DNA of 26,071 nucleotides from positions 1 to 26,071 of the IMG/VR virus record IMGVR_UViG_3300027754_002993; one strand, 5' to 3'. A program made the translations under genes and the position numbers. Source of the stretch: a virus. Of the stretch, positions 1 to 20,557 are shown piece by piece (within the stretch, counting starts at the first letter, position 1; each line of letters opens with the position of its first letter). The notes below the pieces were generated by a model. It had not been told where the DNA came from, searched no databases, and worked only from the letters and a program-made list of their open reading frames with translations.

Positions 1-583
1 CAGTCGCAGTAGGAGTTAACCCAACAGATGCTGTCGGAGAAGGTGTAAGTGTTGCAGTTGTAGTTACCGTTGGAGTTTGGGTTTGAGTTGGAGTTTGGGT
101 TTGAGTAGATGTTTGAGTTTGAGTTGGAGTTTGGGTTTGAGTAGATGTTTGAGTTTGAGTTGGTGTTTGAGTGTTTGTTGGAGTTTGCGTATTTGTTGGA
201 GTTATTGTTGGTGTTTGAGTCTGAGTTGCAGTGTTTGTCGGTGTTTGAGTCTGAGTTGTAGTATTTGTTGGAGTTACTGTTGGAGTTTGTGTATTTGTTG
301 GTGTAGTCGTTGGGGTTGTACTAATTGAAGTTACTGATGGTGTAGGTGTTGGAGTTGGTGTTGCACATTCAAGAGTTACAACCACACCATTAAACATTTC
401 ATTTCTTGTCTGTGCAGAATAATAAATTACGCTATCAACATAAACATTAAATGGCCCCAAAGCATTTGAATTAGACGCTAATCTAACAATATAAGAAGTA
501 CAACCTGTAACCGTTAATTGTTGTTCGATTTCAGTTGCACATCCTGGGGCGTTATTTGTTACTAATATAGAATATGTGGACAT
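1..583 (-). CDS. Thr/Pro-rich repeat tail protein, N-terminal part (C-terminus outside window)
   Basis: The gene opens with ATG at 583 and stays open to the window edge (194 codons), so its C-terminus is missing. Residues 1 to about 75 form a small, probably beta-rich domain with three cysteines and a segment reading GPFNVYVD, which loosely recalls the module in the gene just upstream. From about residue 76 the protein becomes almost entirely Thr, Pro, Gln, Asn and Ser in a TPTQTQ/TPTNTQ pattern with almost no charged residues, typical of an extended stalk or linker. It is the last visible gene of the tail-tip cluster, 70 bases after the preceding stop, and has its own promoter-like AT-rich element. 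No enzymatic motif is visible. An adhesin or decoration protein with a stalk is my inference from composition and position. The reading frame is certain; the function is not recognised. Confidence 0.8.
   Translation of the reverse strand, partial: MSTYSILVTNNAPGCATEIEQQLTVTGCTSYIVRLASNSNALGPFNVYVDSVIYYSAQTRNEMFNGVVVTLECATPTPTPTPSVTSISTTPTTTPTNTQTPTVTPTNTTTQTQTPTNTATQTQTPTITPTNTQTPTNTQTPTQTQTSTQTQTPTQTQTSTQTQTPTQTQTPTVTTTATLTPSPTASVGLTPTAT
60..360. repeat. Degenerate coding repeat with a perfect 36-base tandem duplication
   Basis: The DNA encoding the Thr/Pro/Gln tract is built from short degenerate units of the gttggagtttg/gtttgagt type. Within it, bases 85-120 and 121-156 are identical 36-base copies, and 70-84 repeats part of the same unit. 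The unit is a multiple of three, so copy changes keep the frame of the minus-strand gene. There are no spacers, so this is not a CRISPR array. Confidence 0.85.
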
Positions 584-653: not shown

Positions 654-980
654 TTATGCAAGAGTAAAAGTACAATTTGAATCTTGGATATTAATATTAA
701 CAACACAAGACGCTAATTCGATTGTGATTTGGAACGTACAACCAAAAGTACATTGTAATAATTTAAAAATACTACATCCATTGTTATCCGTTAAGGTTAA
801 CATTATTTCAGGAGCAGTATTAAATATTGAAGGTATTGTGTTATTATATTCAACTGTAGGTGGAACGGGTCCTGTATTTATGGTTCCAAGTAAAGTTTGA
901 TAATTACCATATACATCTGATATGTAAACATCAATTGGGAATGTACCTCCCGATATTTCCGTTATCCTTACCTGTATCAT
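654..980 (-). CDS. Small tail-tip protein with one SprB-like beta module
   Basis: A 108-residue protein starting at ATG 980. The A of this ATG is the last base of the upstream TGA (ATGA overlap), so translation is probably coupled to the SprB-repeat gene. A TTG three codons further upstream keeps the frame, but the ATG is favoured because of the overlap. The N-terminal half contains ISGGTFPIDVYISD, and further on LTLTDNNGCS appears. Both echo the GGTPPYT and VTDxxGC landmarks of the seven repeats in the preceding gene, so this looks like a single divergent module. The C-terminal part has several cysteines. No signal peptide, membrane segment or catalytic motif is seen. A structural or adhesion accessory role is inferred from context only. 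Confidence 0.8.
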   Translation of the reverse strand: MIQVRITEISGGTFPIDVYISDVYGNYQTLLGTINTGPVPPTVEYNNTIPSIFNTAPEIMLTLTDNNGCSIFKLLQCTFGCTFQITIELASCVVNINIQDSNCTFTLA

Positions 981-3112
981 GTTAAACAAATTGTATCATA
1001 AACGATTATCAATTCAATAATAATTTCTTGACCATCCAAACTATTATTTGTTGTACTTGTTTCAATTGTTATTTGATTATTGGCGGAATCAACAGTAATA
1101 AGACCAATGCCAGGAATTGTTTGTAATAATGCAACCACAGTATCATAATATAAGTTGTCACTTGGAGCATCAATTAAAGAAGTTGAAGTGTAGAAACTTT
1201 GGCTTGTTGTCAACCCTAATGGATTTACAGAAACTTTCACACTAAAGTCCGCGGATATTAAATTACAACTTGTATTACCTGAAGTTAAATCATCAAAACC
1301 AACATTTAACATTTGTAATAAACCATACTTTGTTTGAGATTGAATATTAAATGTTTGAGAACCCATAACATATGTTTGATATGACACATATGTTGCATCA
1401 CAAGTAATATCGGTAAATCTTGTAACCGAACAACCATCATCATCAATAATCGTAACACTATATGTACCACCTGTTAATCCTGTAACCGTAATTTCTTGTG
1501 GATTACCATAAACATTATCAGACCAATCAAAAGTAAACGGTGGATTTCCTGAAGAAATAAATGTGGTAATACTACCATTTGAACCTGTACCACAAGAAGT
1601 GTTATATAAACTATAATCTAATTGTGAACTTGACGCAACATAAACTTGAGTAGTTTGAGTACATCCCGTGTTATCTGTAACTGTAATAGTGTGTTGTCCC
1701 GTTGAAACATTATTAAATGTTACGGCAGATTGTGCACTATTATTAATATTAACTAAACCATCCAATGAATAATCATATGGAGCCTCACCACCATCAGTTT
1801 TAGTTACCGTAATATACCCATTACTTTGATTACAAGTTGTTCCTGTAGTTTCAGTTGAAATGGTAAATGTGTTAGTAGAATATAATGTAACTTCGTCCAT
1901 AAAATAACACCCTGAGGCATCTTGAACGGAAACAGTATAAGTTCCCGAATATAAATTAGGGAAAAGTTGGTTTGTTTGATTGTTGGCAATATTCAATACA
2001 TTCCCATCAGGATATATTAAACCATATATGTATGGTGAAGTTCCCCCATTAACCGCAACCGTAATTGAACCACCATTACCAGAACACGTAGAACCCTGAG
2101 TACTAATATTCACCGAAGTAATACCGTTTGGTGACGTTAATGTTGTTCCCGCAACAAATGTACATAACGCAGCATCTGTAACTTGGATACTATAAACACC
2201 TGGTGATAAACCAGATAATGACCATGTTGTACCATATTGTACCGAAATGTCACCTGTCGAAGCCGAATAATAATACGGAGCAGTACCTCCTGTAATTTGA
2301 ATAGTTAAAACTCCGTCTGCTGAAAAACATGTCGGTTGTGTTGCAGTGAATGTACCAAGTCCAACAGGTGAAACATTAGTCACCGTGGCGCTTTTAGTTG
2401 TCACACATCCATAAAAATCTGTGACATCAACAGAATAAATTCCAGCAGTTAAACCCGTAACCGTAGAGCCAGTCGCACTTGTGTTCCAAAGATATGTATA
2501 TGGTGGTGTACCCGTTAAACCTGTAATCATGATTTTACCCATAGCAGTACCACCACAAGATGAATTAGGTACAACATACAAACCATAATCTAAGGTATCC
2601 GAATCTTCAACAATAAAACTTGGTGATTGACCTGTACATCCACCCAAGTCAATAACTGTCATATAATATGTTCCAGCGGTTAAACCATTAAAAACAAATG
2701 TAGATTGATTTGTTATTGCTGATTGTGAAAAGGTACCATCACCACTATATAATAAAAAACTTGTAGATGAATAATCCGATGTTGAAGTTCCTGTTACAGA
2801 ACCGTTGTTAAAGGAACATGTTGTCCCCATAACCCCAAGAATACTTGCACACACCCCACTCGATATTGGGATGTTAATATAGAATTCATTATTTGTTGGT
2901 ATTGTACTATCGTTAACTCTAACAGAATAGGTTGTAGCACTTAAACCTGTTTTTACTGCAGGTTGTGTGGTAATAATATTAGGAGATAATACAGGACTTA
3001 ACCATTGTACCGTATACGGTGGAGTACCACCATTCAGACTCAAACTAATTGACCCTGAATTTGTATTTGAACAATCCCCTGTTACCGTTATATTATAATT
3101 AAAATTTGACAT
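977..3112 (-). CDS. Tail-tip adhesin-like protein with seven SprB-like repeats
   Basis: A 711-residue protein made of about seven tandem immunoglobulin-like modules of 75 to 85 residues (roughly 1-82, 88-170, 172-247, 250-328, 330-412, 413-494, 496-571), followed by a different C-terminal domain (572-711). The landmarks are an N-terminal cysteine, GSI, GGTPPYTYxW, GLTAGxYSVxVTD and a terminal GC; module 3 is the clearest. This is the pattern of the SprB repeat, known from Bacteroidota gliding adhesins. The modules have diverged, so they are an old expansion. The ATG at 3112 overlaps the upstream stop (TAATG). No secretion signal is present, as expected for a virion protein. The C-terminal 90 residues resemble the end of the 994-residue neighbour. 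A receptor-binding or tail-fibre role is inferred; the repeat identification is fairly sure. Confidence 0.85.
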   Translation of the reverse strand: MSNFNYNITVTGDCSNTNSGSISLSLNGGTPPYTVQWLSPVLSPNIITTQPAVKTGLSATTYSVRVNDSTIPTNNEFYINIPISSGVCASILGVMGTTCSFNNGSVTGTSTSDYSSTSFLLYSGDGTFSQSAITNQSTFVFNGLTAGTYYMTVIDLGGCTGQSPSFIVEDSDTLDYGLYVVPNSSCGGTAMGKIMITGLTGTPPYTYLWNTSATGSTVTGLTAGIYSVDVTDFYGCVTTKSATVTNVSPVGLGTFTATQPTCFSADGVLTIQITGGTAPYYYSASTGDISVQYGTTWSLSGLSPGVYSIQVTDAALCTFVAGTTLTSPNGITSVNISTQGSTCSGNGGSITVAVNGGTSPYIYGLIYPDGNVLNIANNQTNQLFPNLYSGTYTVSVQDASGCYFMDEVTLYSTNTFTISTETTGTTCNQSNGYITVTKTDGGEAPYDYSLDGLVNINNSAQSAVTFNNVSTGQHTITVTDNTGCTQTTQVYVASSSQLDYSLYNTSCGTGSNGSITTFISSGNPPFTFDWSDNVYGNPQEITVTGLTGGTYSVTIIDDDGCSVTRFTDITCDATYVSYQTYVMGSQTFNIQSQTKYGLLQMLNVGFDDLTSGNTSCNLISADFSVKVSVNPLGLTTSQSFYTSTSLIDAPSDNLYYDTVVALLQTIPGIGLITVDSANNQITIETSTTNNSLDGQEIIIELIIVYDTICLT

Positions 3113-6096
3113 TAACTAGTGCAATTTATATTAATATTTATCCCAACATTTAAAACTACCGTTTCTTGTAAATTTTGAGAGACACAACCTAAATTAGTTA
3201 TGGTTAATTTATTACCATTTAAGAAATATGTGTAGCCATAATCATATAAAGTTGGTAGATAATCTATTAAAGCATTTCTCCATTGTGAATCTGTTGGTAC
3301 ATCAGTATATCCATAACCATTATAGAAACTATCTTGAATTAATATTTCATTATTAATTCTTAAATCAACATACCATTCCGTTAAAACCGAATTTTGACTA
3401 CATTGATTTAATGTTAATCCACTTGATGACAACATGTTATTAATTCTATTAGATAAAATACTATTAAAATTAGAAACATTAATATCACCATTTAACCACG
3501 GGTAGATATAAAAATCAACATACTCTGTTGTACATGTGTAATCAAAAATACTTGATATGATATAACATGGGTCAACAGGAACTGGTATAAACTGACAACC
3601 TCTTTGTCTTCTATAAACAAATTTTTGTTTGTGGAAGATTGAATTCTCTAATCTAACCCCTCCATTCCAAATGGTTGTTGCGGGAACCATCTGTTCCACT
3701 AACTTAGTCCAATAAGGACCTATACCGTTCACGTAATCAATTAACTTTTGATAAGTGTACTTGTTGTTAGGTAACCCGACAGTTTGTTCTGATTCGATGT
3801 ATTTCCACCAAATAGATTGTAGTGTAGGATAACCACCTGTCTTACCATCAGAGATGTATTGTCTGTTTCGAGTGTTAATCATATTCTGCCAAAAAGTTTG
3901 AGAAAATTCAAAGAACGTTTTTTTCTTAGGTTTTGGGTCAATATAAGTCCAATCAACCCCACCTGGCACAGGGTAACCAACCGTTAGCCCTGACTCAGGT
4001 ATCGGATAATCATATCTTCTTGATTGGTCCCACACATCATAAACAAGACCTTGGGCAGGATTTAAGAATATATCTACATTCTTAACATTTAATACTAATT
4101 TTTCATTATCAACAAAGTAGTAGGCATTGTAATCTCCTTGAGTCGAAACTCTAACTTTATCATCATCCGACAACCAAGATTTATTATTATCGACAATTTT
4201 TTGAAGTTTAAATCCTTCATTCATATACGGAAAATCTCTAAACCTATTTAAATAGGTCTGTCCATATGTGAATGGTTGTAATTGTGTTTGAATGTTAAAG
4301 TTCTGTCCTGTAAAAACATTACCTGTTAAAGTAACTGCATCGGGACTTCTATGTGATGGTGTAGTTTCGTACCAACCCGCACCAATTTGGAAGAAGTAAG
4401 TTTCCGTATTAACAGGAGCATTTGGATAACCTTCAAAATCCATAGGGTAAGCTGCCAATGTAATATTGGTATCGGTGTATGTTGCGTTTGTGGTAAAGGC
4501 AGTATACAAATTACCGTATATACTATAAGTTTGTCCTTGAGCATACGTTGGTGTTTGTTGAACATAAGTTCCACCTGATATTTGAGCCCATTGATAATAA
4601 AATTGGTCAAGATTAATTTTTTGGTCTGCCAAATAAATGTGTTCATTATATTCAATTAATGAATCTGGTGCACCAATCAATCTTAATAAAAATTCAATAG
4701 ACCTTCTTGTACCTTTTGATTTAAAAAGATAAGAAGCATTAAGAATTAAGTTTCTATAATAAGCATAGTTTAATTCTGTTGGCGTTAAAGCTCTGGCATA
4801 ACCAGGATATGTTGGTGTTGCGGTATTACCAAAAACAGACGATAAGAAATCTTCATTTGTAATCGGTGAGAAATTAGATGACCATCCAAGTGTTGAGGAT
4901 AAGTTAACCAACAATTGTGATGGTATGTCATTTGATGGGTTATAGTTCACGGAATTCATGTAAGCCAACCCTTCAACGAATTGTTTTATTTGGTCAAAAC
5001 TTCTACCATAAATTTGGAATATCTTTTCAACTTTTCTACCCAAAGTATCAAATTCTTTTAATGAATCTGAAACCAAAAATCTTGAAATCAAATTGGTTTT
5101 AAATGAATCTAAGTTAACCGCAATTGCTTGGATTTGTTCCAAATAAGAATCAAATAAAAATGAACGAATATCCAAATTCCAAGGTCCGTCTTTTGGCCAA
5201 GTAACTTGTTGGTAATCGGTATATGTTTGACCAAACTCATTTTGTTGTGGTACTTGAAATACCGCAGTATATTCAGGTCTAACCAATCTATTAACTAAGA
5301 ATTTTTCAACCTCATCAAAACTTTCTTGGAATACCTTATCAACAATATAATCATTTGGTCTAACTTGAAATTCTTGTTGTAGTGTTGTTGCTGTTGTACC
5401 AAATGGTGCACCTGAAACATAAAATGTTAGGTTCCCTGATGATAATGTATCTGATGGAACAAATGCTAAAATTTTATAAATGTTATCGTCAATACTAATA
5501 CAATAATCTAAATAAGTTTCATTGATATTTCTATATGCTGAAACATCTAATTCTCTAAGAGTTAAGTTAGTTGAGGCGCTAACCGAATAATCAATATCAA
5601 ATGGATTACGAATCCTATCTACATTTACTTTAAAATAAGTTTCATCGGCTTGAACATCATAAACAATGTCATAGGCGGTATCACCTGTGATATAATCACC
5701 ATTACTAAATTGGACATCTAATGACCCTGGAAAATAATTAATAATTCGAGTAATCGAGACCCTAAATCTTTCAGATAGAGAACCATACATTGAAAAGTTA
5801 AGAACCTGAGTAATATCAAAGTTTGGATAAACTCTAAATTGGGTTGCTAATATTCTTCGACTCTCTTCAACACTATCAATATTCATCATATCCAAAGTCA
5901 TTGGTTCTGAGAACGCTCCGACATTGAATGTGCGATTAACTTTTTCTGTTACTCCTGTTGTAAACTCAAAATTACCTTGCGTAAGTCCTCCCCCCTCGAC
6001 AGTTTGTAATCCTACAATGTTGTCAGAGAAAGTACCCGCACCACTACCTGGCCTTGGTGGATAAAAGTATTTAGTATTTGTTGTGTTTACCGCCAT
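3112..6096 (-). CDS. Large baseplate protein with tail-protein-I-like motif
   Basis: A 994-residue protein whose ATG at 6096 overlaps the upstream stop (TAATG). Around residues 445-480 it has a helical stretch of the form YRNLILNASYLFKSKGTRR followed by SIEFLLRLIG. A KGT followed by a hydrophobic helix is a landmark of the phage tail protein I family (P2 gpI and related), whose members follow the gp25-like and gp6/J-like wedge proteins in contractile tails and correspond to part of T4 gp7. Residues 250-420 also look mainly helical; the N-terminal 240 and the region 480-640 look beta-rich and aromatic. The last 90 residues resemble the end of the 711-residue neighbour. A gp7/gpI-type wedge role linking the baseplate to the receptor-binding proteins is an inference that needs profile searching. 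Confidence 0.75.
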   Translation of the reverse strand: MAVNTTNTKYFYPPRPGSGAGTFSDNIVGLQTVEGGGLTQGNFEFTTGVTEKVNRTFNVGAFSEPMTLDMMNIDSVEESRRILATQFRVYPNFDITQVLNFSMYGSLSERFRVSITRIINYFPGSLDVQFSNGDYITGDTAYDIVYDVQADETYFKVNVDRIRNPFDIDYSVSASTNLTLRELDVSAYRNINETYLDYCISIDDNIYKILAFVPSDTLSSGNLTFYVSGAPFGTTATTLQQEFQVRPNDYIVDKVFQESFDEVEKFLVNRLVRPEYTAVFQVPQQNEFGQTYTDYQQVTWPKDGPWNLDIRSFLFDSYLEQIQAIAVNLDSFKTNLISRFLVSDSLKEFDTLGRKVEKIFQIYGRSFDQIKQFVEGLAYMNSVNYNPSNDIPSQLLVNLSSTLGWSSNFSPITNEDFLSSVFGNTATPTYPGYARALTPTELNYAYYRNLILNASYLFKSKGTRRSIEFLLRLIGAPDSLIEYNEHIYLADQKINLDQFYYQWAQISGGTYVQQTPTYAQGQTYSIYGNLYTAFTTNATYTDTNITLAAYPMDFEGYPNAPVNTETYFFQIGAGWYETTPSHRSPDAVTLTGNVFTGQNFNIQTQLQPFTYGQTYLNRFRDFPYMNEGFKLQKIVDNNKSWLSDDDKVRVSTQGDYNAYYFVDNEKLVLNVKNVDIFLNPAQGLVYDVWDQSRRYDYPIPESGLTVGYPVPGGVDWTYIDPKPKKKTFFEFSQTFWQNMINTRNRQYISDGKTGGYPTLQSIWWKYIESEQTVGLPNNKYTYQKLIDYVNGIGPYWTKLVEQMVPATTIWNGGVRLENSIFHKQKFVYRRQRGCQFIPVPVDPCYIISSIFDYTCTTEYVDFYIYPWLNGDINVSNFNSILSNRINNMLSSSGLTLNQCSQNSVLTEWYVDLRINNEILIQDSFYNGYGYTDVPTDSQWRNALIDYLPTLYDYGYTYFLNGNKLTITNLGCVSQNLQETVVLNVGINININCTS

Positions 6097-8138: not shown

Positions 8139-8956
8139 TATGGATTAACATATTCATACCATTTTATGGGTATTGCCGTACCCGCTCTTTGACCATCATT
8201 TAAATATAATGTTTGGTTTGGATTCATACTGAATACCTGATAGTCATGTTTTTCATAGTCCAACTCAACTCGATAATAAAAATATTTTGTGTTATCAAAC
8301 GAGTATTTGTTTCCCGATAATGATGATTGTGGCATATTTATCATCTTAACAAAATATCCTTTCTTTGCATCATAGAATTTTGCACTCATGAAGAAGGTAC
8401 TAATGTCCAAGAATGTTCGTTTCTTTAACCAATAAATGAAAAACCCTTCTTTATCCCCAACATAATCCAAAACAAAATATGGTTGTTTAATACTAACAGG
8501 AGTCGTCTGCATCAAAGCATCCATCTTTAATCCTTGTTGGGTTGGGATAATAATTGTCACATAGTTTTTTTGTCTTTTATTATCGACAGTATCGTATAAG
8601 TCCAATTTAAAAAATGAATTTGTAAAATTGTTTGTATAATAAAAAATCTCTTGAGTTGTAAATCCTTCCATCAAATAATCGGACCTCCAATTGGCACTAT
8701 CGTCTAATGACCCACCCGAATAAAAATTAAACTCGTATTTGATGTCAGTTGCGTCAGTTGTACCTGTTTGTGGCGCATGTGCAAATCGAGTAACCTCAAA
8801 GTCCCTACCAACACCAATAACCTCAGTAATGATTTCAGATTCATACTCATCAATACTTTGGTCCAATCCAGTATAATCCCAAGTCAATTGAATTGGGATT
8901 GTAAGTTGTCTGTCGACAAAACCGTCTTTACGAATTGTTAATTTATTCACACTCAT
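8138..8956 (-). CDS. Unrecognised tail/baseplate structural protein (272 aa)
   Basis: The family is not recognised. I place the start at ATG 8956, giving 272 residues; a TTG codon immediately before it in frame is less likely. The start lies inside the end of the upstream gene (14-base overlap), and the stop overlaps the next ATG, so both junctions suggest coupled translation. The sequence is rich in Tyr, Phe, Asp and Asn with alternating beta-type patterns (for example KNYVTIIIPT and YFYYRVELDY). No signal peptide, membrane helix or catalytic motif is seen. Placement between two other structural genes in the baseplate cluster makes it a likely virion component, possibly a small beta-domain connector. 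Confidence 0.75.
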   Translation of the reverse strand: MSVNKLTIRKDGFVDRQLTIPIQLTWDYTGLDQSIDEYESEIITEVIGVGRDFEVTRFAHAPQTGTTDATDIKYEFNFYSGGSLDDSANWRSDYLMEGFTTQEIFYYTNNFTNSFFKLDLYDTVDNKRQKNYVTIIIPTQQGLKMDALMQTTPVSIKQPYFVLDYVGDKEGFFIYWLKKRTFLDISTFFMSAKFYDAKKGYFVKMINMPQSSLSGNKYSFDNTKYFYYRVELDYEKHDYQVFSMNPNQTLYLNDGQRAGTAIPIKWYEYVNP

Positions 8957-10631
8957 CAAATAATGGTTTTATTGGGTATTGAACTCCAAGTGTATTATAG
9001 TTTATTCCTTCAGGAACTAATCTGAAAATTGATTCTTTAAAAGGATATTGAGCGCTATTCAAAAACGGATAGTTAACACCTCTTTCAAGATTATCCTTAA
9101 ACCCATAAGTATATAGGTCTCTCCATCTAAACGATTGGTCGGATGAAGAATAAAAAGAATAGAAAGGAACATTTTCAACTTGCCCCGCAATCGCAGTTTC
9201 AACATAATCAGAAAAAACCCTGATGGTCATCGATGTGTGGGGTTTGTAATAGAATCCAGGAGTATTTGTCGAATATGTGTTAGTAGTTTGAAACACATTT
9301 TGATTGTAATTTATTTTTTGATAATATGGTGAAACAACTCTTTCACTTTGAGCATAATCGTTCCACTCACAAAAATCACCATCAACAGTATCTCCTGACA
9401 TTAAATCTTGGTTATAATAAAATGTTTTAGTAACACCACTAGTTAACGTATAATTATTGGTTTGTATTTTAGTATCAGACGCATTGTTGGTTAACTCCCA
9501 CCAACTACTTGTTGGCGTTGTTAAATTAAACTCCCAACCTTGTTTTAGTCCAATCCCATTATTTGGTTGGTTAAAATATCCTGTATAACCCTTGTTAATT
9601 ATTGTTAAGAATAATTCACTAACAGGTCGTTTTTGATTGTCTAAAACCCCACGTAAATTTATATCATAATTAACCGTAACACTATACGAATTACTACTTG
9701 TTTTTTGTGAAATCCTTGAGATTTGATTTGGTGTAATTGAACTGTATTCAAATTTCTTTTCTTCACTGAACACATTTTTTTCAAAACCATTTTTGGTCAT
9801 GACGCAGTCATTGACATTTGTTAAAATCTTATGTTCTCTAATATAATATTTTGACCTTGTTTCTAATAGATTGTCAGGGTCAATAATTCTTTTAAAGGTA
9901 CCTGTCACACCATTAGCGAAAGTTACTCCCGTATATCCATAGTTATATAGGTTGTATATGTATTCCTCACTACCCAACTGATTGTTCCCCAAAGAATAAA
10001 CTTGGAACAAATTTGTTTGGTTATAGAAAAATGATAACTCAACATACTCTCCAACGGTTAATCCATGTGGCGCAATACATTGGAATCTAATTACATTACT
10101 ACCATTTTGAGTTCCATTATTAATTGAAAATGGTATTCCTTCCGAAGCAATCCAATTATACGAACTATTATTTAAATTATAGGATAATATTTTGTCGTAA
10201 TTATTGTTATACCCATAACTAATATAATAGGTCCAATTATATGTGTAAGCACTTTTGGCCTTGTATGCAACATGTTGGTCATCAATAAATGGTCGATAAA
10301 AATCAAACTCATAATATTGAGGATATCCTTTCCAAATACCACTAACCGAAGATTGTTCAGGTTCGACATAATATAAAGTATTCCTAAATGGAACATATTG
10401 AGTAGTACCTGTATATGTGTTAGCATATAGGTAATTGATTTTAAATGTTGGTCTGAAAATGCCGCTACCTTGTCTTTCGTCATCATAAACTTGCGCAAGA
10501 CTAATACTTTGACTTCGGTCATATTCAACCATTTGTTGACTCTGTTGTTCTAAGGAAATACTAATCTCTTGGTCGACAAAAGGTGCTGACTTATATTTCT
10601 GACTACTTGGTATAATTGTATACTTATTCAC
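8943..10631 (-). CDS. Unrecognised tail/baseplate structural protein (562 aa), GTG start
   Basis: A 562-residue protein beginning at GTG 10631. The start lies in the 8-base GTGAATAA overlap with the end of the 1669-residue gene, and the next in-frame methionine is residue 34, so the GTG is preferred. The sequence is very rich in Tyr, Asn, Ser, Thr and Phe (for example YYISYGYNNNYDKI) with a beta-type alternating pattern. A segment reading APHGLTVGEYVELSF (about 189-203) resembles a small beta-barrel turn often found in phage structural proteins. There are no membrane helices and no catalytic motif. It follows the gp25-gp6-giant gene series, so a baseplate wedge or tail-tip subunit is likely, but no T4 counterpart can be named. 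Confidence 0.75.
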   Translation of the reverse strand: MNKYTIIPSSQKYKSAPFVDQEISISLEQQSQQMVEYDRSQSISLAQVYDDERQGSGIFRPTFKINYLYANTYTGTTQYVPFRNTLYYVEPEQSSVSGIWKGYPQYYEFDFYRPFIDDQHVAYKAKSAYTYNWTYYISYGYNNNYDKILSYNLNNSSYNWIASEGIPFSINNGTQNGSNVIRFQCIAPHGLTVGEYVELSFFYNQTNLFQVYSLGNNQLGSEEYIYNLYNYGYTGVTFANGVTGTFKRIIDPDNLLETRSKYYIREHKILTNVNDCVMTKNGFEKNVFSEEKKFEYSSITPNQISRISQKTSSNSYSVTVNYDINLRGVLDNQKRPVSELFLTIINKGYTGYFNQPNNGIGLKQGWEFNLTTPTSSWWELTNNASDTKIQTNNYTLTSGVTKTFYYNQDLMSGDTVDGDFCEWNDYAQSERVVSPYYQKINYNQNVFQTTNTYSTNTPGFYYKPHTSMTIRVFSDYVETAIAGQVENVPFYSFYSSSDQSFRWRDLYTYGFKDNLERGVNYPFLNSAQYPFKESIFRLVPEGINYNTLGVQYPIKPLFDECE

Positions 10632-13600
10632 CTACAGAATATTTTGTTTTAAATTTATCCAAAGCGCTATTACCTTTCATAATACCAAAATAAAAATGGA
10701 ATGGAGCCCCAACTAAGAATCTACTTAATGGTACTCCCGCCATACTATAGGCATACTTACCATTAGAGTCCACATTAAAGATATACGCTCTTTGGTTTAA
10801 ATCCGTTGTGTTGTTTGACCCTACAAAATATGTTGGTGGGTCAATATTTCTCCTATCTAATGATTGGTAATTATATCCAAAAATACCTGAAAAATCACTA
10901 ATTGAAGATTGGGTCGTTAACCAATTATTATTTTGTGAGCCAAAAATATTTTGAATTGATTGTTGTTCTAATCCCCATTGATAAAATGGAACATATTGTG
11001 ATTTTATACCATAAGGATATGTTATTGCATTTGCATTATTTGATGGTCTAAAATCAATAACTCCTGGCGTTAAGAAATCTTTGTTCTGTAAATCAACCGT
11101 TGTTGATGAAAAGAAAATACCCATTGTTGGATTATCTAACCCCCCTAAAATAACTACAGGGTCATCACTCGTACCGTAAACACTATAATATTCTGGTGAG
11201 AATGGAATTACACCGTATTCAGAGTTAATTGACATGCTTTGAGCCAAGTCACCATCAATCCTTCTTTCAGGTCGAGTAAATAATTGGTTTAATCCATTAT
11301 TTCCCGCAGTAACAATTTGAGCCAAAAATCCTTCATCGGTAATTCTGGATATCACAAATAAGTTAACCAAGTCAGATGTATCTGAATAACTTGTAGAATT
11401 TAAAGTGTTCATGATATATCCTTTTGCTGAAGGGTCAAAAATTATTTCATCATAAAAATCATCTTTAATACCTAAATTGATAATTGTTGTTGGAAACAAT
11501 AAATTTCTTTTATTAACAGGTCTAGATAAAGGAGCTCCATTTTGGTTAGTATTAGGTCTACCAATGAATCTTTGACTTGTACTCCCCGAAAAATATGGTG
11601 AACTTCGATAATAAAAATTATTTGTTTTATCGTCAAAATAAACTAATTCTTTTGCAAAATTTGGTGGTAGTGGTTTATTATTACTATCAAAAAAAGTGTC
11701 CACTTGTATTGGAAATGTATATAAAGAACCGTTAACCCAATTATTTGTAAAAGTTTGAGATAGTACTCCACGACATAGTCCATAAAAAAATCTAAATCTG
11801 TATCCCCACTCACCAAACGCTAGTAAATCTTTCTGTAAATCTTTAATTGGTTCAACCAAAAATACATAACAACCATTTTCAACTGAGTCACTATTTTGAC
11901 AATTTGTTGATACTCCGAAGTTAACACTATTACCCGTATAACAATTAAGTCCAACCATTTTCTCACATACACTCAGGGTCTCAACAACATTAACACTTCC
12001 AAGTTGACCCTCAATATCGGTTGTGGCTTGAGATGCTCCCGTAGAATACCCATTAGTAGTAATATTTTGACCAAGACTATTATAACGATATACCGTAAAT
12101 CCAAGATTTTGTTGTAATAATGATGCGTTATTATTCAAATCAGCACTATCAATATAATCTGATGAAGGTAATCTATCACTTCTCATAATATTTTTAGAAT
12201 AATTTGAAATAGTGAATATACTAGTACCTGTTAATGTTGGGTATAATATAGGACTAAAATACCACTCGTATCCAATAGTAAGATTAGTTGTTGGTAAATA
12301 ACTCGTGAGAATTGCTCCACCCGATAAATCTTCTGCCAAATCATAAAATTTGTTATCTGAGGTTGAATTGTAATAATCGTTACCCGTGGCAGTTGTGAAT
12401 CCTCTCTTATTATTTATATTAGGTTCTCTATTACCAAACTGATTAGAAGAATATATGTATGGTGGACTAGTTTGATTGGTATTTGTTGTAGGTGGATTAG
12501 GTGAGTAAATTACTCTATTTGATGCAATTCCATCTAACGCTCCGTAATACCCAACATTACTTGTGGTAAATGATGAATATTGAAATCCAGATGTTGTTGA
12601 GCCAAGAATTCCTGGAGTATAAAAATATGATTGGAAATAAATATTATCCTGAACATTATGTTGAGCAATTAACGTTGTTGAGGTTGCAGGAACTTTTTGT
12701 ATTGGAATATTAAGTCTTGTTGATGCGGTAAATGTCCAATTTGGGTCATTTTCATTAGTACCAAATAATGTACCAATACCGTATTTATTTGTAAATAATG
12801 GTGAATAAGGGTCAACACCTTTTTGTAATATCAATATTGTTTGTTGTTTAATATCTGGAAACGAATCGACAAAATTACTATCAATTGTATTCTCTAAAGT
12901 AAATGGGTCGCTACTATTAGGACTATAATATTGTAGAATACTATTGGTTTGGTCTATAGCTCCACCCCAAAAACCACTAGTTGTTGATGAATTTGGCACA
13001 TAATATTGTGTAACTCCATTGACTATTGTTGAAGTAATTGTAACTGCGGTTAATACTTGATAATATTCAATATCCGATGGAAATATATATCTTTGACAAG
13101 TATCACCACTACTAATTAAATCAAATTCTGCACTACCATCTAAACTTGTAATATTAATACAATTATTATCGGTAATTGTTTGTGTCCCTAATGTTGTAGC
13201 ACTGTACGCAACCAAAAGTGAATTACAATCATAATAAGTGATAACACCTAAACCAGTAACGTCAACCGTTACATTATTAGCACACACTAATGTGTTGTTA
13301 CTAGGTATTGTATAATATTGTTGTAAATTTTCTAATTGATTACTTGGATTTGCATAATCAACTGTAAGTTGAAATTGATTAGTTTTTATAGTACCATTAA
13401 TACCCTTTAGAGTTGTAGCACCATTTGATGTAAGTCCTGTCCATAAATAATTAGAGTCTTTTGATTGATTAGAATTAACAAAAGATAATAAAGTTCCTGG
13501 CTCTAAAATTTCGGTTGCCAATACAGCTAAAGTATTATCATAATGATATGTTAAATTTGTATCAGCGGCAAAACTTACTTTGATTCTATTAACATTTTGA

Positions 13601-15633
13601 AAATATTTATTTCTTGTATTAAAAACATTAATTCTTTCACCGATAGGTAATGAAGTTGAAACAGCAAATCTTCTTGAATTATCCGAGAATGTAATAATAT
13701 CACTAATAGCGGTTTTAAATACTTGAGGATTTGAGGGTTGACTATTTCTAGTCGCTGTTGCTTGTGAAATTATTAATGCCAATTTTGAGGCGTAGTCGTA
13801 CTCATAATTAAATGTTTGTTGATAATAATCAATGTAGTGTTCAATATATAGTGATGAATTAGAAACTTGAGTTAAAAGTCCTGGATTTGGCGTGTCTGGA
13901 TTTGTTTGAGTAATCTCTGTTGGTCCACAATCACAAGCCTGACAATCAGGATATGTAATCATTGGTAATTTAAATGAGAATCTTGTTTTATCACAATTAA
14001 AGTTTTTCAAAAACCTTGGGTTAAAAGTATCTTTAACCCAACATAGTAAATCTATTACTAAACCATATAAGTACAATAAAAGGTGGGCAACAATTAATAA
14101 TATCAAACCAACAATTTGTAATACTTGTAATATAATTGCAAATAGAAAATAAATTAAATCAAAATTTCTAAATCCATCATTTACAGGAAATTTATTAATA
14201 CTACTCTCACAATCTTGACTATCAATTTCTTTAATACCTATAAATCTACCTCTACCACCATTTTTAAATTCATCAATTAATCCTGAAACAGTATAAACTT
14301 TATTAAATTCAAATTGGTAAAATGTGTCATTACAATTTATTGCAGCTTCGGTATTTGTATAACCTGTCCAATCTAATCCAAAATAATATGAACCCGCTAA
14401 TTTTGAATTTAAGGATGGCGTTGTAACCAAATTTGGGTCTTGAAGTGTGTTTGTCCACCCATACTCTTTAATATTAGGAACTAAAAAATATGGTCTTCTA
14501 ACTTGTTCTGTTAGTGCGGTAGGTTGTTGCCATTTAATTTTAAATCTATATTTTCCCTTTGTTGGTATACCGATTGATGGGTCATTTGAAATAACTTTTT
14601 CACCAAACTCATTTGTTATATAATAATCCAAATTCATTGGTAACTCTGTTAACCAAACTCCATCACCATCAATTATATTACCCGATTGTTCTAACTCATA
14701 TTCTTCTAATATTGGATTACCTGTGGTATCTTGTTGTATTGTTTGTCGTATTGCAAGTATCTGTCCTGGCCCTGTAGTTAAACTACACAAGTTACCCATA
14801 TCATCCTTTGGTTTTGCATTTTTTCTAACTCTAAAATTGTCTGGCGTAGAGTATATTGACCCCATATATACCGACGTTGGCTGAATATTAACATTTGCAT
14901 CATCTCGTAAATCAAAATCAAGTCGATTAATCGCTATATCACAAATATCAGGTTCACCCCAAAGTGGCGAAATTTCTAAACTTTTAACTAAATTAATAAT
15001 TTGAGGTAATGAATTTATATCGTTTGACGTTCTAAATCTATTCCCCGCAACTTGACCTTCAGTTGCTAACCCCATTCTAATTAAATCTTGAGGTGTTAAT
15101 GAGAACTCTCCAATATCAGATAAGTCAACATCCATCACAACAGTTTGAAACCCTAAAGGTACCCCCATTATCATGTAATCTCCACTCTCGTTTGTTTTGG
15201 CAGTAAACTTATAATATTTGTCGTATATTTCAACGGCAGTTGTTCCTGTTAAGGCATCTAATCTTGATGGTAGTGTACCTGTTGCTGCATGTACAGAATA
15301 AGATTTTTCGTAAGGTAATAAATTATATCGGTATCCATCTTCATTTTTATCTGTTGGGGATTTGTATGGGTAAATACTTGATATAACTGGGTTTGATTCG
15401 TCAACATTAGTTATTGATATGAATATTGACACTCTAGCATTTGGTATTCCAAATCCATTATTAGCTGTAACTCTACCAACAATAACACCATAATCCGCAC
15501 AACTCCTGTCATACACATCCTCCTGTTGTATTTTTAAAGATAAAATCTCTAACTGTTCAAACTCTTGGTCTAATTGTACGTTGATTGTTTTGTTAACCCC
15601 TAATTCGGTCCTTATTCTATATGATTGACTCAT
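10624..15633 (-). CDS. Giant baseplate-region protein with beta-sandwich domain and internal hydrophobic segment
   Basis: A 1669-residue protein, ATG at 15633, directly after the gp6-like gene. Residues about 47-155 resemble a carboxypeptidase regulatory-like beta-sandwich (YGVIVGRVTANNGFGIPNAR, later SGDYMIMGVPLGFQTV). Residues about 491-532 form an almost uninterrupted hydrophobic stretch (LIYFLFAIILQVLQ continuing to LYLYGLVIDLLCW), long enough for two membrane helices, followed near 560-570 by a cysteine cluster DCQACDCG. The rest is Asn, Thr, Ser and Tyr-rich and probably beta-structured; around 780-830 is a small domain with YYDCN and DNNC. It occupies the place of gp7 in the T4 wedge order but I see no clear similarity to gp7. 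A virion structural role is likely; the hydrophobic stretch is odd for a baseplate protein and might contact the cell envelope. Confidence 0.8.
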   Translation of the reverse strand: MSQSYRIRTELGVNKTINVQLDQEFEQLEILSLKIQQEDVYDRSCADYGVIVGRVTANNGFGIPNARVSIFISITNVDESNPVISSIYPYKSPTDKNEDGYRYNLLPYEKSYSVHAATGTLPSRLDALTGTTAVEIYDKYYKFTAKTNESGDYMIMGVPLGFQTVVMDVDLSDIGEFSLTPQDLIRMGLATEGQVAGNRFRTSNDINSLPQIINLVKSLEISPLWGEPDICDIAINRLDFDLRDDANVNIQPTSVYMGSIYSTPDNFRVRKNAKPKDDMGNLCSLTTGPGQILAIRQTIQQDTTGNPILEEYELEQSGNIIDGDGVWLTELPMNLDYYITNEFGEKVISNDPSIGIPTKGKYRFKIKWQQPTALTEQVRRPYFLVPNIKEYGWTNTLQDPNLVTTPSLNSKLAGSYYFGLDWTGYTNTEAAINCNDTFYQFEFNKVYTVSGLIDEFKNGGRGRFIGIKEIDSQDCESSINKFPVNDGFRNFDLIYFLFAIILQVLQIVGLILLIVAHLLLYLYGLVIDLLCWVKDTFNPRFLKNFNCDKTRFSFKLPMITYPDCQACDCGPTEITQTNPDTPNPGLLTQVSNSSLYIEHYIDYYQQTFNYEYDYASKLALIISQATATRNSQPSNPQVFKTAISDIITFSDNSRRFAVSTSLPIGERINVFNTRNKYFQNVNRIKVSFAADTNLTYHYDNTLAVLATEILEPGTLLSFVNSNQSKDSNYLWTGLTSNGATTLKGINGTIKTNQFQLTVDYANPSNQLENLQQYYTIPSNNTLVCANNVTVDVTGLGVITYYDCNSLLVAYSATTLGTQTITDNNCINITSLDGSAEFDLISSGDTCQRYIFPSDIEYYQVLTAVTITSTIVNGVTQYYVPNSSTTSGFWGGAIDQTNSILQYYSPNSSDPFTLENTIDSNFVDSFPDIKQQTILILQKGVDPYSPLFTNKYGIGTLFGTNENDPNWTFTASTRLNIPIQKVPATSTTLIAQHNVQDNIYFQSYFYTPGILGSTTSGFQYSSFTTSNVGYYGALDGIASNRVIYSPNPPTTNTNQTSPPYIYSSNQFGNREPNINNKRGFTTATGNDYYNSTSDNKFYDLAEDLSGGAILTSYLPTTNLTIGYEWYFSPILYPTLTGTSIFTISNYSKNIMRSDRLPSSDYIDSADLNNNASLLQQNLGFTVYRYNSLGQNITTNGYSTGASQATTDIEGQLGSVNVVETLSVCEKMVGLNCYTGNSVNFGVSTNCQNSDSVENGCYVFLVEPIKDLQKDLLAFGEWGYRFRFFYGLCRGVLSQTFTNNWVNGSLYTFPIQVDTFFDSNNKPLPPNFAKELVYFDDKTNNFYYRSSPYFSGSTSQRFIGRPNTNQNGAPLSRPVNKRNLLFPTTIINLGIKDDFYDEIIFDPSAKGYIMNTLNSTSYSDTSDLVNLFVISRITDEGFLAQIVTAGNNGLNQLFTRPERRIDGDLAQSMSINSEYGVIPFSPEYYSVYGTSDDPVVILGGLDNPTMGIFFSSTTVDLQNKDFLTPGVIDFRPSNNANAITYPYGIKSQYVPFYQWGLEQQSIQNIFGSQNNNWLTTQSSISDFSGIFGYNYQSLDRRNIDPPTYFVGSNNTTDLNQRAYIFNVDSNGKYAYSMAGVPLSRFLVGAPFHFYFGIMKGNSALDKFKTKYSVGE

Positions 15634-15725: not shown

Positions 15726-17564
15726 TTAAGAGAAAGTAATTGATTGGAAGTTCTTAACTGAAACTCTGATATCTTTACCTGGATATCTAATCTGATAAAC
15801 TTGTGATGGTTGTGCAAATATGGTATCATCAATAGGTCCAATAAGTTTTAATGCTGGGTCTGAATATTCCATAGATGTTTCTGCAGATGAATACTGCCCT
15901 CCAACTTCATTGAAAACATCTAACGTTGAAACGGTTAATACTCCGTTTGTGTTTTGAATAATACTTCTAAGTTCTGATAGATAAACATTTTCACCTAATT
16001 GTCTTGTCTGAGGGTTAAAGTACGTTGATACTTTATCAATAACACTTGAAATAACTTGTCCTGAATTTTGAGCAGAATCTAAAACAATTGCAACATCTAC
16101 ACTCAAGTCAATAACCTCAGCACTAAATATTGAAATGTAATCATTCATCATTCGGTAATTTGATAAATAATTTGCAACATTTTGTCTCAAAGTATTTGAA
16201 ACAATATTGGTTAATTTACCTGATGTATCATAAGATAACATTTGAATTAATATCTTATTATCATTTTCAGTAATGGATACTTTTGCAGGTGCTCCAAACT
16301 GAGCTGGCATGTTTCTAATAATTGATTCGTAATCCTGTACCGTAACAGCTCTTTTTTGTGCTGAGAAGTTAAACGATACATAGTTTCTAATTTCTTCTAA
16401 TGAAGGAATTCCTGCACCACCAACCGCCGCAGTTACGTTAACACATCTTAATGAATTAATCACCGCTGAGTTTGTTGTTTCAGATGGTCCATTAACAAAG
16501 AATGAAACCGTACCAATTTGATTAATTACATTAGTACCTAAATTACTTCCTAATCCACCACCAACTCTATATTGTATAAACAATGTTGAATTTGGCGTTA
16601 ATGTCGCTCCTAATGAGAAATTGTTAGAATATTTTTGAAGGTCTAACGTTGTACCTAAAGTTGTAAATTGGTTCAATTGGTCTTGAGCAGTATTGGTACC
16701 ACCACCAAATGTCATTTTCTTAAATCCTTCAGGAGTGTATTCAGTAATAAATCTGGTTTGTGTTTGAATGTATCGTCCTACTTTAATACCAGGTTGGTCA
16801 GAAACTTTTGTTGGGTCTTCAATAAAAACTCGGTCTTCAGCCAAGGCATCAACTTCATACCATCTATTGTCCACACCTAAGAACTCCGCAGTTGTTGGTG
16901 TATTTGTATATTGGGTACCGTTCTTTAATAATACACTTGTAATTCCTAACACGTTTTTTTCAGGTAAAAACAATTCAAAGAATGGTTTAACATCATTTGC
17001 ACCAATAACTCGTTTGAATACTTTAGTCACACCATTCACAACAACTTCTCGTTTTGTGATTGTATAATTCACTAATACATTATTAGCATTAAAGTTTGGT
17101 ATCTTTAATCTGTTTGGAGCCCCTTGGGAATTGTATGGTGATGCAAAATCAATATCGTAAACATTTTCAAAAACAACTCCAGCACCAACAACTTGTGAAC
17201 CCCTTAATAGTGTTCCAAGATATCTTTCATCTTCTTTATCACCAAAAGCGGGAACCGTAATTGAGAAGTCAACCAACGCAACCGATGGTCTTTGACCTGG
17301 TAATTTTAACCCATAAGTTCTGGCGATATTATAAATTGACGACCTTTGTTGTGCATATTGTAATACAGTTTCCTGAATACTCCTATCGATATTGTAATGT
17401 AAGTTATCGGCAATCGCAGCGTTTAAGTCAATAAATACGGAGAATACCGAAGCGTCATTAAAGTCTTGAATTAAGTCAGGATAGTAAGTTTTCGCATAAT
17501 TTAAAAGTTCTGTCCTGATTGACTGATAATCTCTAGTTGCGTAGGATATTTTATTATTTGCCAT
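15726..17564 (-). CDS. 6: Baseplate wedge protein, gp6/J-like
   Basis: A 612-residue protein close in length to T4 gp6 (660). The start resembles gp6-type proteins: a YATRDYQSIRTELLNYAK segment, then DFNDASVFSVFIDLNAAIADNLHYNIDRS. A baseplate-J-like core lies around 400-500, with QKRAVTVQDYESIIRNMP, typical of the J/gp6 family in which RAVTxxDYE is well conserved. In T4-like tails gp6 dimers form the ring of the baseplate wedge together with gp25 and gp7. Here it follows the gp25-like gene by only 5 bases, the same gp25-gp6 (W-J) order found in many contractile tails. The ATG at 17564 is preceded by an A/T-rich leader without Shine-Dalgarno. Identification is strong from motifs, length and neighbours. 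Confidence 0.9.
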   Translation of the reverse strand: MANNKISYATRDYQSIRTELLNYAKTYYPDLIQDFNDASVFSVFIDLNAAIADNLHYNIDRSIQETVLQYAQQRSSIYNIARTYGLKLPGQRPSVALVDFSITVPAFGDKEDERYLGTLLRGSQVVGAGVVFENVYDIDFASPYNSQGAPNRLKIPNFNANNVLVNYTITKREVVVNGVTKVFKRVIGANDVKPFFELFLPEKNVLGITSVLLKNGTQYTNTPTTAEFLGVDNRWYEVDALAEDRVFIEDPTKVSDQPGIKVGRYIQTQTRFITEYTPEGFKKMTFGGGTNTAQDQLNQFTTLGTTLDLQKYSNNFSLGATLTPNSTLFIQYRVGGGLGSNLGTNVINQIGTVSFFVNGPSETTNSAVINSLRCVNVTAAVGGAGIPSLEEIRNYVSFNFSAQKRAVTVQDYESIIRNMPAQFGAPAKVSITENDNKILIQMLSYDTSGKLTNIVSNTLRQNVANYLSNYRMMNDYISIFSAEVIDLSVDVAIVLDSAQNSGQVISSVIDKVSTYFNPQTRQLGENVYLSELRSIIQNTNGVLTVSTLDVFNEVGGQYSSAETSMEYSDPALKLIGPIDDTIFAQPSQVYQIRYPGKDIRVSVKNFQSITFS

Positions 17565-17569
17565 TTCTA

Positions 17570-18040
17570 TTAAATATTGATAATAACAAAATCACTCTGA
17601 GCATATGTTGAGCCGTTTGTGGAGTAATCTAATCTTATTTTTGCGGTGTATTCTGCGGTTCCCTTGCCAGGAAATCTATAAATTGAAGATTCACTTGTTC
17701 CTGCAAAGTTTTGTCCTGTTGCGATATCTACCTCTTCTTGTACGTCAGCTGGTGTAATACTCAAACTATTAACCAAAAGGTTTGGCATAAAATTCTCAAT
17801 CGCATCTCTAATGTCAGACTCAATCGCGGTAAATGTAATACCATCGAATGGTTCAAAAAGAAATTCATATAATCTTGTACCAAATTCAGGTAAAAAGTAT
17901 CTTGACCCTTTTCTCGTTAATAACAAATGTATTAGGTCAGCCTTAATTTCTTGTGACTCTAATTCAGTAAGCTCTAAGTAATTTCCCTTTCTCGAATCAC
18001 GAAAAGGAAAATTAATACCATAAGTAAAACCATTTGCCAT
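17570..18040 (-). CDS. 25: Baseplate wedge protein, gp25/W-like
   Basis: A 156-residue protein slightly longer than T4 gp25 (132). It carries the family's central pattern: a helix IKADLIHLLLTRKGSRYFLP, then EFGTRLYEFLFEP, then a helix DIRDAIENFMP and a strand pair. The gp25 family is a lysozyme-like fold without lysozyme activity and is part of the conserved wedge core that nucleates sheath assembly. It is the first gene of the structural module, preceded by the terminator of nrdA and by a possible promoter (18071-18082), and followed 5 bases later by the gp6-like gene. The insertion near residues 100-125 (TGQNFAGTSESSIYRFPG) explains the additional length. Identification is confident. Confidence 0.92.
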   Translation of the reverse strand: MANGFTYGINFPFRDSRKGNYLELTELESQEIKADLIHLLLTRKGSRYFLPEFGTRLYEFLFEPFDGITFTAIESDIRDAIENFMPNLLVNSLSITPADVQEEVDIATGQNFAGTSESSIYRFPGKGTAEYTAKIRLDYSTNGSTYAQSDFVIINI

Positions 18041-18118: not shown

Positions 18119-20545
18119 TTAGGAACTACATCCAAAACATTCAAAAGGACTATCCTCAGGTTTTGTTGTTAATTCAGTTATTTCAACTTTTGGTATTTCA
18201 ACTTTAACCTTAGGTTGTGATATCTTTGAAACATCAACCGCTAAGTGTTTCGCTCCTGTTGAAATCGCTTTAGTTCTAACGTAATAACATAAAGTTTTCA
18301 ATCCTTTTTCCCATGAGTGAAAATGTGATGAGGTAATCTTAGACAATGTTGGGTTAGCCATATAGATGTTCATTGATTGTGATTGGTCGATAAATGGTGC
18401 TCTATCTGCCGCCATGTTAATCAATTCTCTTTGTGAAATCTCCCAAATTGTTTTGTACTTACTAATCAAGTGTTCAATACGTTTAACTTTCTTGGTATAG
18501 TTTTTATCCTCAGTATCAAGGTGATTATTGAAGTTAATATTTTGAACTGAACCTTCATTTATAATGATTTCGTTTTTCAATTCTTCACTCCAAATACCAA
18601 TCTTTTCAAAATCATTAATCAAGTACTTGTTCACAATCATAATTTCACCACCAACAACTCTTCTGTTAAATAACGCTGAGTGAGCTGGTTCCGTCATTTC
18701 AAATGAACCTGTAATCTTAGCTGAAGATGCCACAGGCATCTGAGCCGTGAATAATGAATTACACACTCCATGATTAGAAACTTCTAATTTAAGACTATCC
18801 CAATCCCATAAACCACCTAATCCTTCATAATCTAATCCCCACATATCAAATTGGAATATTCCTTTTGACATTGGTGAACCTTCAAAGTGTGCGTATGGTT
18901 TGTGTTGACCTGTCTTACATAACTCCATACTCTCAGTAATTGCTGCGAAGTAGATAGTTTCAAAAATCATTTTATTTAATTTCTTAGCTTCTTCAGATGT
19001 GAAAATATAATCCATTAAATAGAATACGTCAGCCAATCCTTGTGTTCCAATTGCAATTGCTCTTTGGTCTAATCCACCTTTTCTACCTTTTTCAGTTGAA
19101 TAACTATTGATGTCGATAACTTTGTTAAGAGCTCTAACAACTTTTCTTACTTCACTATAAAGTAAGTTAAAATCAAACTCACCTTTTTCAATAAAGTTTT
19201 TCAATACCATTGAAGATAATGTACAGATTGCTGTAGTCTTCTCGTCAGTATATTGGTAAATCTCATTACAAAGGTTCGATTGTTTAATCACACCAATGTT
19301 TTGGTGGTTTGTTTTCTTGTTAGCATTATCTTTAGAACATAAGTAAGGAACACCAGTTTCAACTTGTGATTCAATAATCTTAGTCCAAACATCTTGAGCC
19401 TTAACTTTTTTACCAAGACCTAAGTAAACTGCTTTGTTGTAGTTTGCTTCGTACTCATCACCATAACATTCTTGAAGTGGTTTAATACCCGCCTTAAGAA
19501 TATCGTTAGGACAGAACAAATACCAATCAGTACTTTCCTTTACCGCTCTCATGAAGTTGTCAGGAAGCCAAAGAGCTGTAAACAAATCTCTTGCTCTTAA
19601 TTCTTCAGCACCTGTGTTCTTCTTGATATCTAACAAGTCCATAACATCTTTGTGCCATGGTTCGATGTAGATAGCAGCACTACCAGGTCTTCTTCCTTGT
19701 TGGTTAAAGAATCTTAATGACTCGTTAACAATTTTCAAATACTTCAACAATCCACCCGCAAATCCACCTGATGAATTGATACGACTTTCTTTACTTCTGA
19801 TGTTAGACATTGATAAACCAATACCCGCTGCGTCTGAAGAATAAGTTGAGATATCATTCAAGGTTTCTAATAAACCATTACGTGAATCTGAGTTGTTATA
19901 ATGTAATACACACGATGCTAATTGAGGAACTTTGGTTCCTGAATTAATAATGATTGGTGTTGCTGGTGAGATAAGTTGATTAGATAATGAATGGTAATAT
20001 TCAACCGCTTCTTCAAATGAGTTTGTTACCCATAGAGCAACTCTCATATACATGTGTTGTGGTCTTTCAACTACTTTACCTTGTGGTGTCTTTAACAAGT
20101 ACATCTCTTGTAATGAACGCCAAGCAAAGTAATCAAAGTTATAATCATTCTCGTGATTAATAATTTCATCAATTTTGTCGTGACCATATTCATCCATAGT
20201 TTGAATTAACTTGTCGTTAATAACACCACTCTCATGTAACTCTTTAATTGTCTCACAAAAACTTTCATTAGTTTCTTTGTGGTACGCAGAAATTGCAACC
20301 GATGAAGCTAATCTTGAATAGTCATGGTGACTACCAGTATAAGCTGCAGCGATTTCATAAACCAACTTATCCAACTCTTTAGTTGTAATAATCCCTTCAG
20401 TTGGTACCGATGTGATAACCTTGATGAATATTTCATCAGAGTTAACGTTTAATCCTTTAGCGGCACGTTTAACTCGATTATAGATTTTTTGAGGATTGAA
20501 TGATGCGTCCTCGCCGTTTCTTTTTTTAATTTTTAATGACATCAT
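18119..20545 (-). CDS. nrdA: Class Ia ribonucleoside-diphosphate reductase, alpha subunit
   Basis: Reduces ribonucleoside diphosphates to deoxy forms together with NrdB, supplying DNA precursors for phage replication. At 808 residues it is full length for the eukaryote-like group. An ATP-cone regulatory domain occupies about 1-95. Catalytic landmarks are all present: C212 in LASCVLHYNNSDS, N424/C426/E428 in SNLCNEI, partner C441 in AICTLSS, and the radical-transfer pair Y754-Y755 in LCYYVRTKA. The tail ends in CFGCSS (C803, C806), the mobile thiol pair that re-reduces the active site. There is no intein or intron interruption. Two adjacent ATGs begin the gene; I use the first. It lies 12 bases after nrdB and is closed by a clear terminator. 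Identification is essentially certain. Confidence 0.97.
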   Translation of the reverse strand: MMSLKIKKRNGEDASFNPQKIYNRVKRAAKGLNVNSDEIFIKVITSVPTEGIITTKELDKLVYEIAAAYTGSHHDYSRLASSVAISAYHKETNESFCETIKELHESGVINDKLIQTMDEYGHDKIDEIINHENDYNFDYFAWRSLQEMYLLKTPQGKVVERPQHMYMRVALWVTNSFEEAVEYYHSLSNQLISPATPIIINSGTKVPQLASCVLHYNNSDSRNGLLETLNDISTYSSDAAGIGLSMSNIRSKESRINSSGGFAGGLLKYLKIVNESLRFFNQQGRRPGSAAIYIEPWHKDVMDLLDIKKNTGAEELRARDLFTALWLPDNFMRAVKESTDWYLFCPNDILKAGIKPLQECYGDEYEANYNKAVYLGLGKKVKAQDVWTKIIESQVETGVPYLCSKDNANKKTNHQNIGVIKQSNLCNEIYQYTDEKTTAICTLSSMVLKNFIEKGEFDFNLLYSEVRKVVRALNKVIDINSYSTEKGRKGGLDQRAIAIGTQGLADVFYLMDYIFTSEEAKKLNKMIFETIYFAAITESMELCKTGQHKPYAHFEGSPMSKGIFQFDMWGLDYEGLGGLWDWDSLKLEVSNHGVCNSLFTAQMPVASSAKITGSFEMTEPAHSALFNRRVVGGEIMIVNKYLINDFEKIGIWSEELKNEIIINEGSVQNINFNNHLDTEDKNYTKKVKRIEHLISKYKTIWEISQRELINMAADRAPFIDQSQSMNIYMANPTLSKITSSHFHSWEKGLKTLCYYVRTKAISTGAKHLAVDVSKISQPKVKVEIPKVEITELTTKPEDSPFECFGCSS

Positions 20546-20557
20546 ATTGTTTTATAA

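Follow-up and report, generated by a model that had tools for sequence, protein, structure and literature searches.

Short- and flexible-tailed phages are the main source of what is known about membrane-active segments; for contractile-tailed phages, how DNA passes the last membrane is, to our knowledge, little understood. In gp9, the tail knob protein of phi29 (Salasvirus), loops form a helix bundle in the virion and a helix barrel after ejection (PMC6542822), while outer-membrane insertion has been proposed for about 46 hydrophobic residues of T5 pb2, the tape measure and pore-forming protein (PMC10038345). An outer-membrane pore has also been proposed for helices of the baseplate protein megatron of R4C and RcGTA, a siphophage/GTA protein (PMC10276861). 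In T4 the most membrane-like among the baseplate proteins computed was gp7 (KD19 2.07 at 886), whose membrane-like stretch lies between its Pfam domains V and VI. The protein bears the annotation 'predicted integral membrane domain', although baseplate-wedge structures of it have been solved.

The protein described here, of 1669 residues and referred to as the giant protein, is encoded in a stretch of DNA of 26,071 nucleotides (positions 1 to 26,071 of IMG/VR record IMGVR_UViG_3300027754_002993), the whole of which is called the window (Table 1). Using the same computation throughout, the 36-residue hydrophobicity (KD36) was 2.44 for the window segment, 1.62 for T5 pb2, 1.17 for T4 gp7 and 1.06 for phi29 gp9. 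The best 36 residues of the window segment include one charged residue and those of gp9 include none. As with the L-loop of gp9, the segment is long, hydrophobic and charge-poor and lies inside a tail-tip protein, the tail location of the giant protein being given by gene context only. However, the gp9 loop is Gly/Ala-rich and less hydrophobic, the phi29 tail is short and non-contractile, and no profile similarity was found between the two proteins (hhalign probability 0.2%). The helix of the giant protein differs from T5 pb2 in being flanked by beta-rich domains, and the protein as a whole is beta-rich apart from this one long helix rather than mostly helical and coiled-coil like a tape measure. 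The megatron is likened to it by description only. Similarities with T4 gp7 are the large multidomain architecture, the gene position directly after gp6, one membrane-like stretch and also the eight Cys of gp7, although the hydrophobicity of gp7 is much milder. The identification of the giant protein as gp7 itself was rejected at the level of profiles (hhalign probability 0.2%, with a YLFKSKGT-type motif found instead in another window protein, p994), and no homology with T4 gp10 was found.

Gene neighbourhood and phage type

The giant gene directly follows those of the gp25-like and gp6 (Baseplate_J) proteins, which sit upstream, and it was found directly after gp6 in the loci covering both genes. 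The gene order gp25-gp6-giant-p562-p273-p369-p302-p994 was kept in relatives with long enough contigs, with p562 downstream of the giant gene in three of four far genome-contig relatives. The earlier note had placed the protein among baseplate wedge proteins; its gene does belong to the baseplate cluster, but a strict wedge identity is doubtful because the gp7/gpI-like motif sits in p994. This latter protein has no Pfam match, and a region of it, SYLFKSKGTRRS-EFLLRLIGAPD, recurs in large proteins of Mel-JY01, immuto and LR756508. We take its KGT motif to mark gp7/gpI-like proteins, and p994 is probably the true gp7/gpI-like wedge protein. The same three entries (Flavobacterium immuto, Microcystis Mel-JY01 and LR756508) hold the nearest GenBank gp6 proteins at approximately 27% identity, and no homolog of the giant protein was detected in their corresponding region.

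Relatives of the giant protein at 49–77% identity are referred to as the window clade. Contractile-sheath matches (PF04984, E<2e-6, ORFs of approximately 1070 aa, below the Pfam cut-off) were present in 8 of 8 contigs of this clade that were tested, the match being absent from the window itself, and two of these eight contigs encode bS21 or a bS21-like protein. Freshwater Bacteroidetes phages described earlier also encode bS21 (PMC9723584). Given the presence of bS21 in the clade and of SprB repeats (PF13573, five stretches) in the neighbouring ORF 977–3112, Bacteroidota hosts are likely, and we infer from these genes that the window clade probably infects freshwater Bacteroidota. In one relative, a protein with SprB repeats that is encoded in the corresponding region matches Hoc-like decoration PHROGs.

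Elsewhere in the window, nrdA and nrdB (18119–21505) lie between the helicase and gp25 genes. This pair looks like an optional insertion, as in several relatives (e.g., L003, L025, L026, L130, and L131) the helicase gene adjoins gp25 directly. A low-complexity Pro/Thr-repeat ORF (PTPTPT/TQTQT) occupies 2–583 and remains open at the edge of the window, and another repeat ORF lies antisense to it at 77–328.

Table 1. Coordinates of the giant protein, its neighbours and its features in the window
Feature	Position	Strand	Basis
p994, likely gp7/gpI-like wedge protein, SYLFKSKGTRRSIEFLLRLIGAPD region	3112..6096	-	HMM match to Mel-JY01, immuto, LR756508 proteins
p562, next after giant gene in window clade	8943..10631	-	synteny
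Giant tail-cluster protein, 1669 aa	10624..15633	-	ORF, relatives, synteny
Beta-rich C-terminal region, aa 593–1180, mostly pLDDT above 85	12094..13857	-	AlphaFold2
Trailing conserved motif, aa 556–569, LPMITYPDCQACDC, with Cys564/567/569	13927..13968	-	
Length-hypervariable stretch, aa 529–553, extra hydrophobic segments in relatives	13975..14049	-	
Hydrophobic helix, aa 493–537, predicted single and continuous	14023..14157	-	AlphaFold2, periodicity, substitution pattern
Leading flank, aa 480–492, NKFPVNDGFRNFD, near-invariant	14158..14196	-	
Cys475, invariant in window clade only	14209..14211	-	
Second transthyretin-like beta-sandwich (predicted), aa 254–453	14275..14874	-	AlphaFold2, VIA-align
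First transthyretin/carboxypeptidase-regulatory-like beta-sandwich (predicted), aa 46–250	14884..15498	-	AlphaFold2, VIA-align, sub-threshold PF13620
gp6/Baseplate_J wedge protein	15726..17564	-	PF04865, phrog_219
gp25-like wedge protein	17570..18040	-	PF04965, phrog_261

The hydrophobic segment and its predicted shape

The segment, at 14035–14165 on the minus strand, corresponds to residues 490–533 of the giant protein. The strongly hydrophobic stretch of about 40 residues that the earlier note had pointed out was confirmed at aa 491–532 (FDLIYFLFAIILQVLQIVGLILLIVAHLLLYLYGLVIDLLCW), with a best 40-mer Kyte-Doolittle mean of 2.36 as against 1.73 for the maximum of 1000 shuffles of the protein. 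Its best 19-mer mean was 2.90. Among the 15 ORFs tested, KD exceeded 1.8 in 27 windows, of which 26 belong to this one protein, and no other part of the window is strongly hydrophobic. The shuffles, along with the conservation in relatives, rule out chance or artefact as the origin of the segment. Its composition had been given as only one His and one Asp, where there are in fact Asp at 492 and 528, Gln at 503 and 506, and a single His at 517; residues 493–527 contain no D, E, K or R. The net charge is approximately +3 after the segment and -1 before it. The Cys cluster DCQACDCG, expected near 560–570, was found at aa 563–570 (CQACDC at 564–569) and is conserved in relatives. It falls in a low-confidence region of the structural model and could bind metal or form disulfides.

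An AlphaFold2 model of aa 1–620, built with 106 diverse sequences (mean pLDDT 81), predicted beta-sandwiches at approximately 46–250 and 254–453 followed by one helix at 493–537, which had a pLDDT of 83–87 over most of its length in this better model and low-confidence linkers on both sides. In a second model, built with 100 closer sequences, the region 580–1180 was well predicted and beta-rich. With VIA-align, the first domain matched carboxypeptidase N/D C-terminal domains in both models, with Z as high as 10.3 in one (79 residues) and 6.5 in the other (80 residues), and rows 254..453 matched transthyretin with Z of about 5. The modelled N-terminal beta domains may resemble carboxypeptidase-regulatory/transthyretin folds. 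The corresponding Pfam entry, CarboxypepD_reg (PF13620), scored 15.1 bits for the window protein and 25.4 bits for the best relative, below the gathering score of 32.3 bits. A Foldseek search of the PDB gave one match only, to a pilin (E 9.9e-4, low TM-score), and no clear phage match.

Hydropathy over residues 493–528 peaks at 100 degrees (p 0.001 for the window sequence, p below 2e-4 for both clades, of which the second is described below), and the polar face in the family-averaged hydropathy is nearly identical in the two. This periodicity with its nearly constant polar face points to one continuous helix, hydrophobic nearly all round, with a polar stripe at 499/503/506/510/513–514/517/521/524/528. 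A helical hairpin, as suggested in the earlier note, was therefore rejected for the window version, which was predicted as a single helix of about 45 residues in both models and has this one continuous periodicity; relatives with long inserts may form one. As for burial of the segment in a core helix bundle, the AlphaFold2 monomer has no such bundle and no other long helix in aa 1–580, but the helix may be buried between subunits or against a partner.

Conservation in two clades and in far relatives

Approximately 120 distinct window-clade sequences were gathered from IMG/VR. Absence from close relatives, which had been raised as a ground against the membrane reading, was not observed: every relative of at least about 49% identity with a complete segment has it, the remaining relatives being cut by contig ends or differing slightly from the search expression. 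The segment is flanked by NKFPVN[DE]GF[RK]NF before and a YP-x-C-x2-C-x-C-type motif after, and the insert between these flanks measures 50–150 aa in discrete classes of 50–85, 106–117, and 136–150 aa. Relatives carry approximately 30–80 extra hydrophobic residues at 529–553, giving up to four or five TM-like windows, some of them Gly/Ala-rich. The longest inserts (~136–150 aa), with Ala/Gly-rich hydrophobic stretches, are those of L146, L161, L102, and L158.

Within the window clade, sequence identity drops to 44% in the segment from 77% N-terminally, while substitutions to D/E/K/R in 493–524 (16 of 811, 2%) are tenfold rarer than in the N-terminal 470 aa (1052 of 5228, 20%). As charged residues are suppressed while identity drops, selection acts on hydrophobicity and not on sequence. 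Cys475 and Cys569 are specific to this clade, and Cys45, 231, 283, and 434 (codons 15499, 14941, 14785, and 14332) are almost invariant in it and mostly absent in the second clade.

The second clade was reached through the relative L201, from a genome-collection contig, and comprises 80 loci on contigs of up to 412 kb, several of which are presumably from rumen samples, judging by contig identifiers. Its proteins share approximately 35% identity with the window protein. All 80 loci have the hydrophobic helix at the same position, mostly with KD19 above 1.8, and a YxPGC-like Cys motif follows the helix in 32 of the 53 sequences aligned. Here the segment is more amphipathic, with a mean of 2.3 charged residues in 493–524 and with invariant Asn513 (54/54) and Cys499 (53/53). 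In three far relatives (L200, L202, and L203; 26–37% identity) the N-terminal region is retained but the helix is missing. In the tree, L203 and L202 fall outside, while L200 joins the second clade weakly (0.81). A search of these loci for a small ORF encoding the helix separately yielded only short frames, indistinguishable from noise, and a scan seeded with the L202 protein gave no relatives.

No tblastn match in GenBank phages was obtained for the window protein, for two proteins of the second clade or for one far relative. The family as a whole appears to be undescribed, since the giant protein had no significant PHROG match, no Pfam family reached its cut-off and the PDB gave no match by sequence profile. 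One protein of Myoviridae sp. ctPuP5 (A0A8S5LA66) is a family member by Foldseek (E 8.8e-49, with 38% identity across 451 columns) and is listed only as uncharacterized, without an assigned function.

Proposed role of the helix

The best explanation, to which we give about an even chance, is that the giant protein is a baseplate or tail-tip component of contractile-tailed phages, placed there by its gene neighbourhood only, whose shielded helix would enter the host envelope during infection and serve there as a channel or an anchor. In the virion, the helix would probably be shielded by neighbouring copies or partners. Infection and contraction would then expose it for insertion, with its hydrophobic faces in contact with lipid and the thin polar stripe facing a channel or a sister helix, and a ring of copies would anchor the tail or line the DNA channel. 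We infer virion presence, the oligomer, exposure on contraction, membrane insertion, the target membrane and the channel or anchor role by analogy with phi29 gp9, T5 pb2 and the R4C megatron.

Membrane insertion is favoured by a hydrophobicity far above chance and above that of known membrane-active tail segments, by the want of another long helix in aa 1–580 against which the segment could be buried, by its retention in both clades along with tolerated hydrophobic inserts and the charge asymmetry, and by the rarity of charged substitutions and the 100-degree periodicity with its shared polar face. In addition, among the large tail-cluster ORFs in an 80-kb region surrounding the tail genes of one relative, several membrane-like windows occurred in the giant protein alone, which makes it the leading candidate for the membrane step; a weak tape-measure candidate in the same relative (sub-threshold PF10145) had none. 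Against membrane insertion, the three far relatives keep the N-terminal region without the helix.

The amphipathic segment of the second clade, with its invariant Asn and Cys, would also suit a protein–protein bundle, and T4 gp7, likewise encoded directly after gp6, is a solved wedge protein despite its membrane-like stretch. Both speak for a possible, though distinctly less probable, alternative in which the helix never meets lipid and is a buried structural helix that, once the baseplate is assembled, packs against gp6, p562 or sister copies. The 36-residue hydrophobicity of the giant protein is however about twice that of gp7, relatives accommodate additional hydrophobic inserts tens of residues long, and the two proteins have no profile match, the gp7/gpI-like motif being that of p994.

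The charge asymmetry resembles that of membrane proteins and could belong to a helix whose task lies in virion morphogenesis and not in entry, where it would fix the assembling baseplate to the inner membrane of the host. Thylakoid tail-like systems, anchored via a tail-fibre transmembrane helix and a baseplate extension, offer a precedent (PMC8894136), but a free virion would have to extract or shield the helix and no chaperone-like partner was identified; such an anchor is unlikely. Most improbable is a narrower form of the best explanation, in which the helix only tethers the tail to the outer membrane, as hairpins of T5 pb3 are reported to do alongside pb2 (PMC10038345), and DNA passes by another route; given its length and polar stripe, the helix is no less suited to a channel.

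Of what the earlier note proposed, the conserved membrane-like segment, the baseplate-cluster gene and the Cys cluster stand and the hairpin, for the window version, does not. That the segment is real and deeply conserved is confirmed, and insertion into a membrane is its most likely, though not proven, role. Tentatively, and with considerable doubt, the contractile-tailed large phages of the two clades might be said to possess a protein dedicated to membrane penetration and distinct from the tape measure, hub and wedge proteins. Its ultra-hydrophobic amphiphilic helices, hung from the baseplate as a ring, would be the channel through the envelope, and lineages would differ in how many membrane segments they have. 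In any case, a large and apparently undescribed family in large phages carries a more extreme, conserved version of the membrane-active segment in a baseplate-cluster protein, and this gives a concrete prediction of which protein would touch the membrane, narrowed to one helix.
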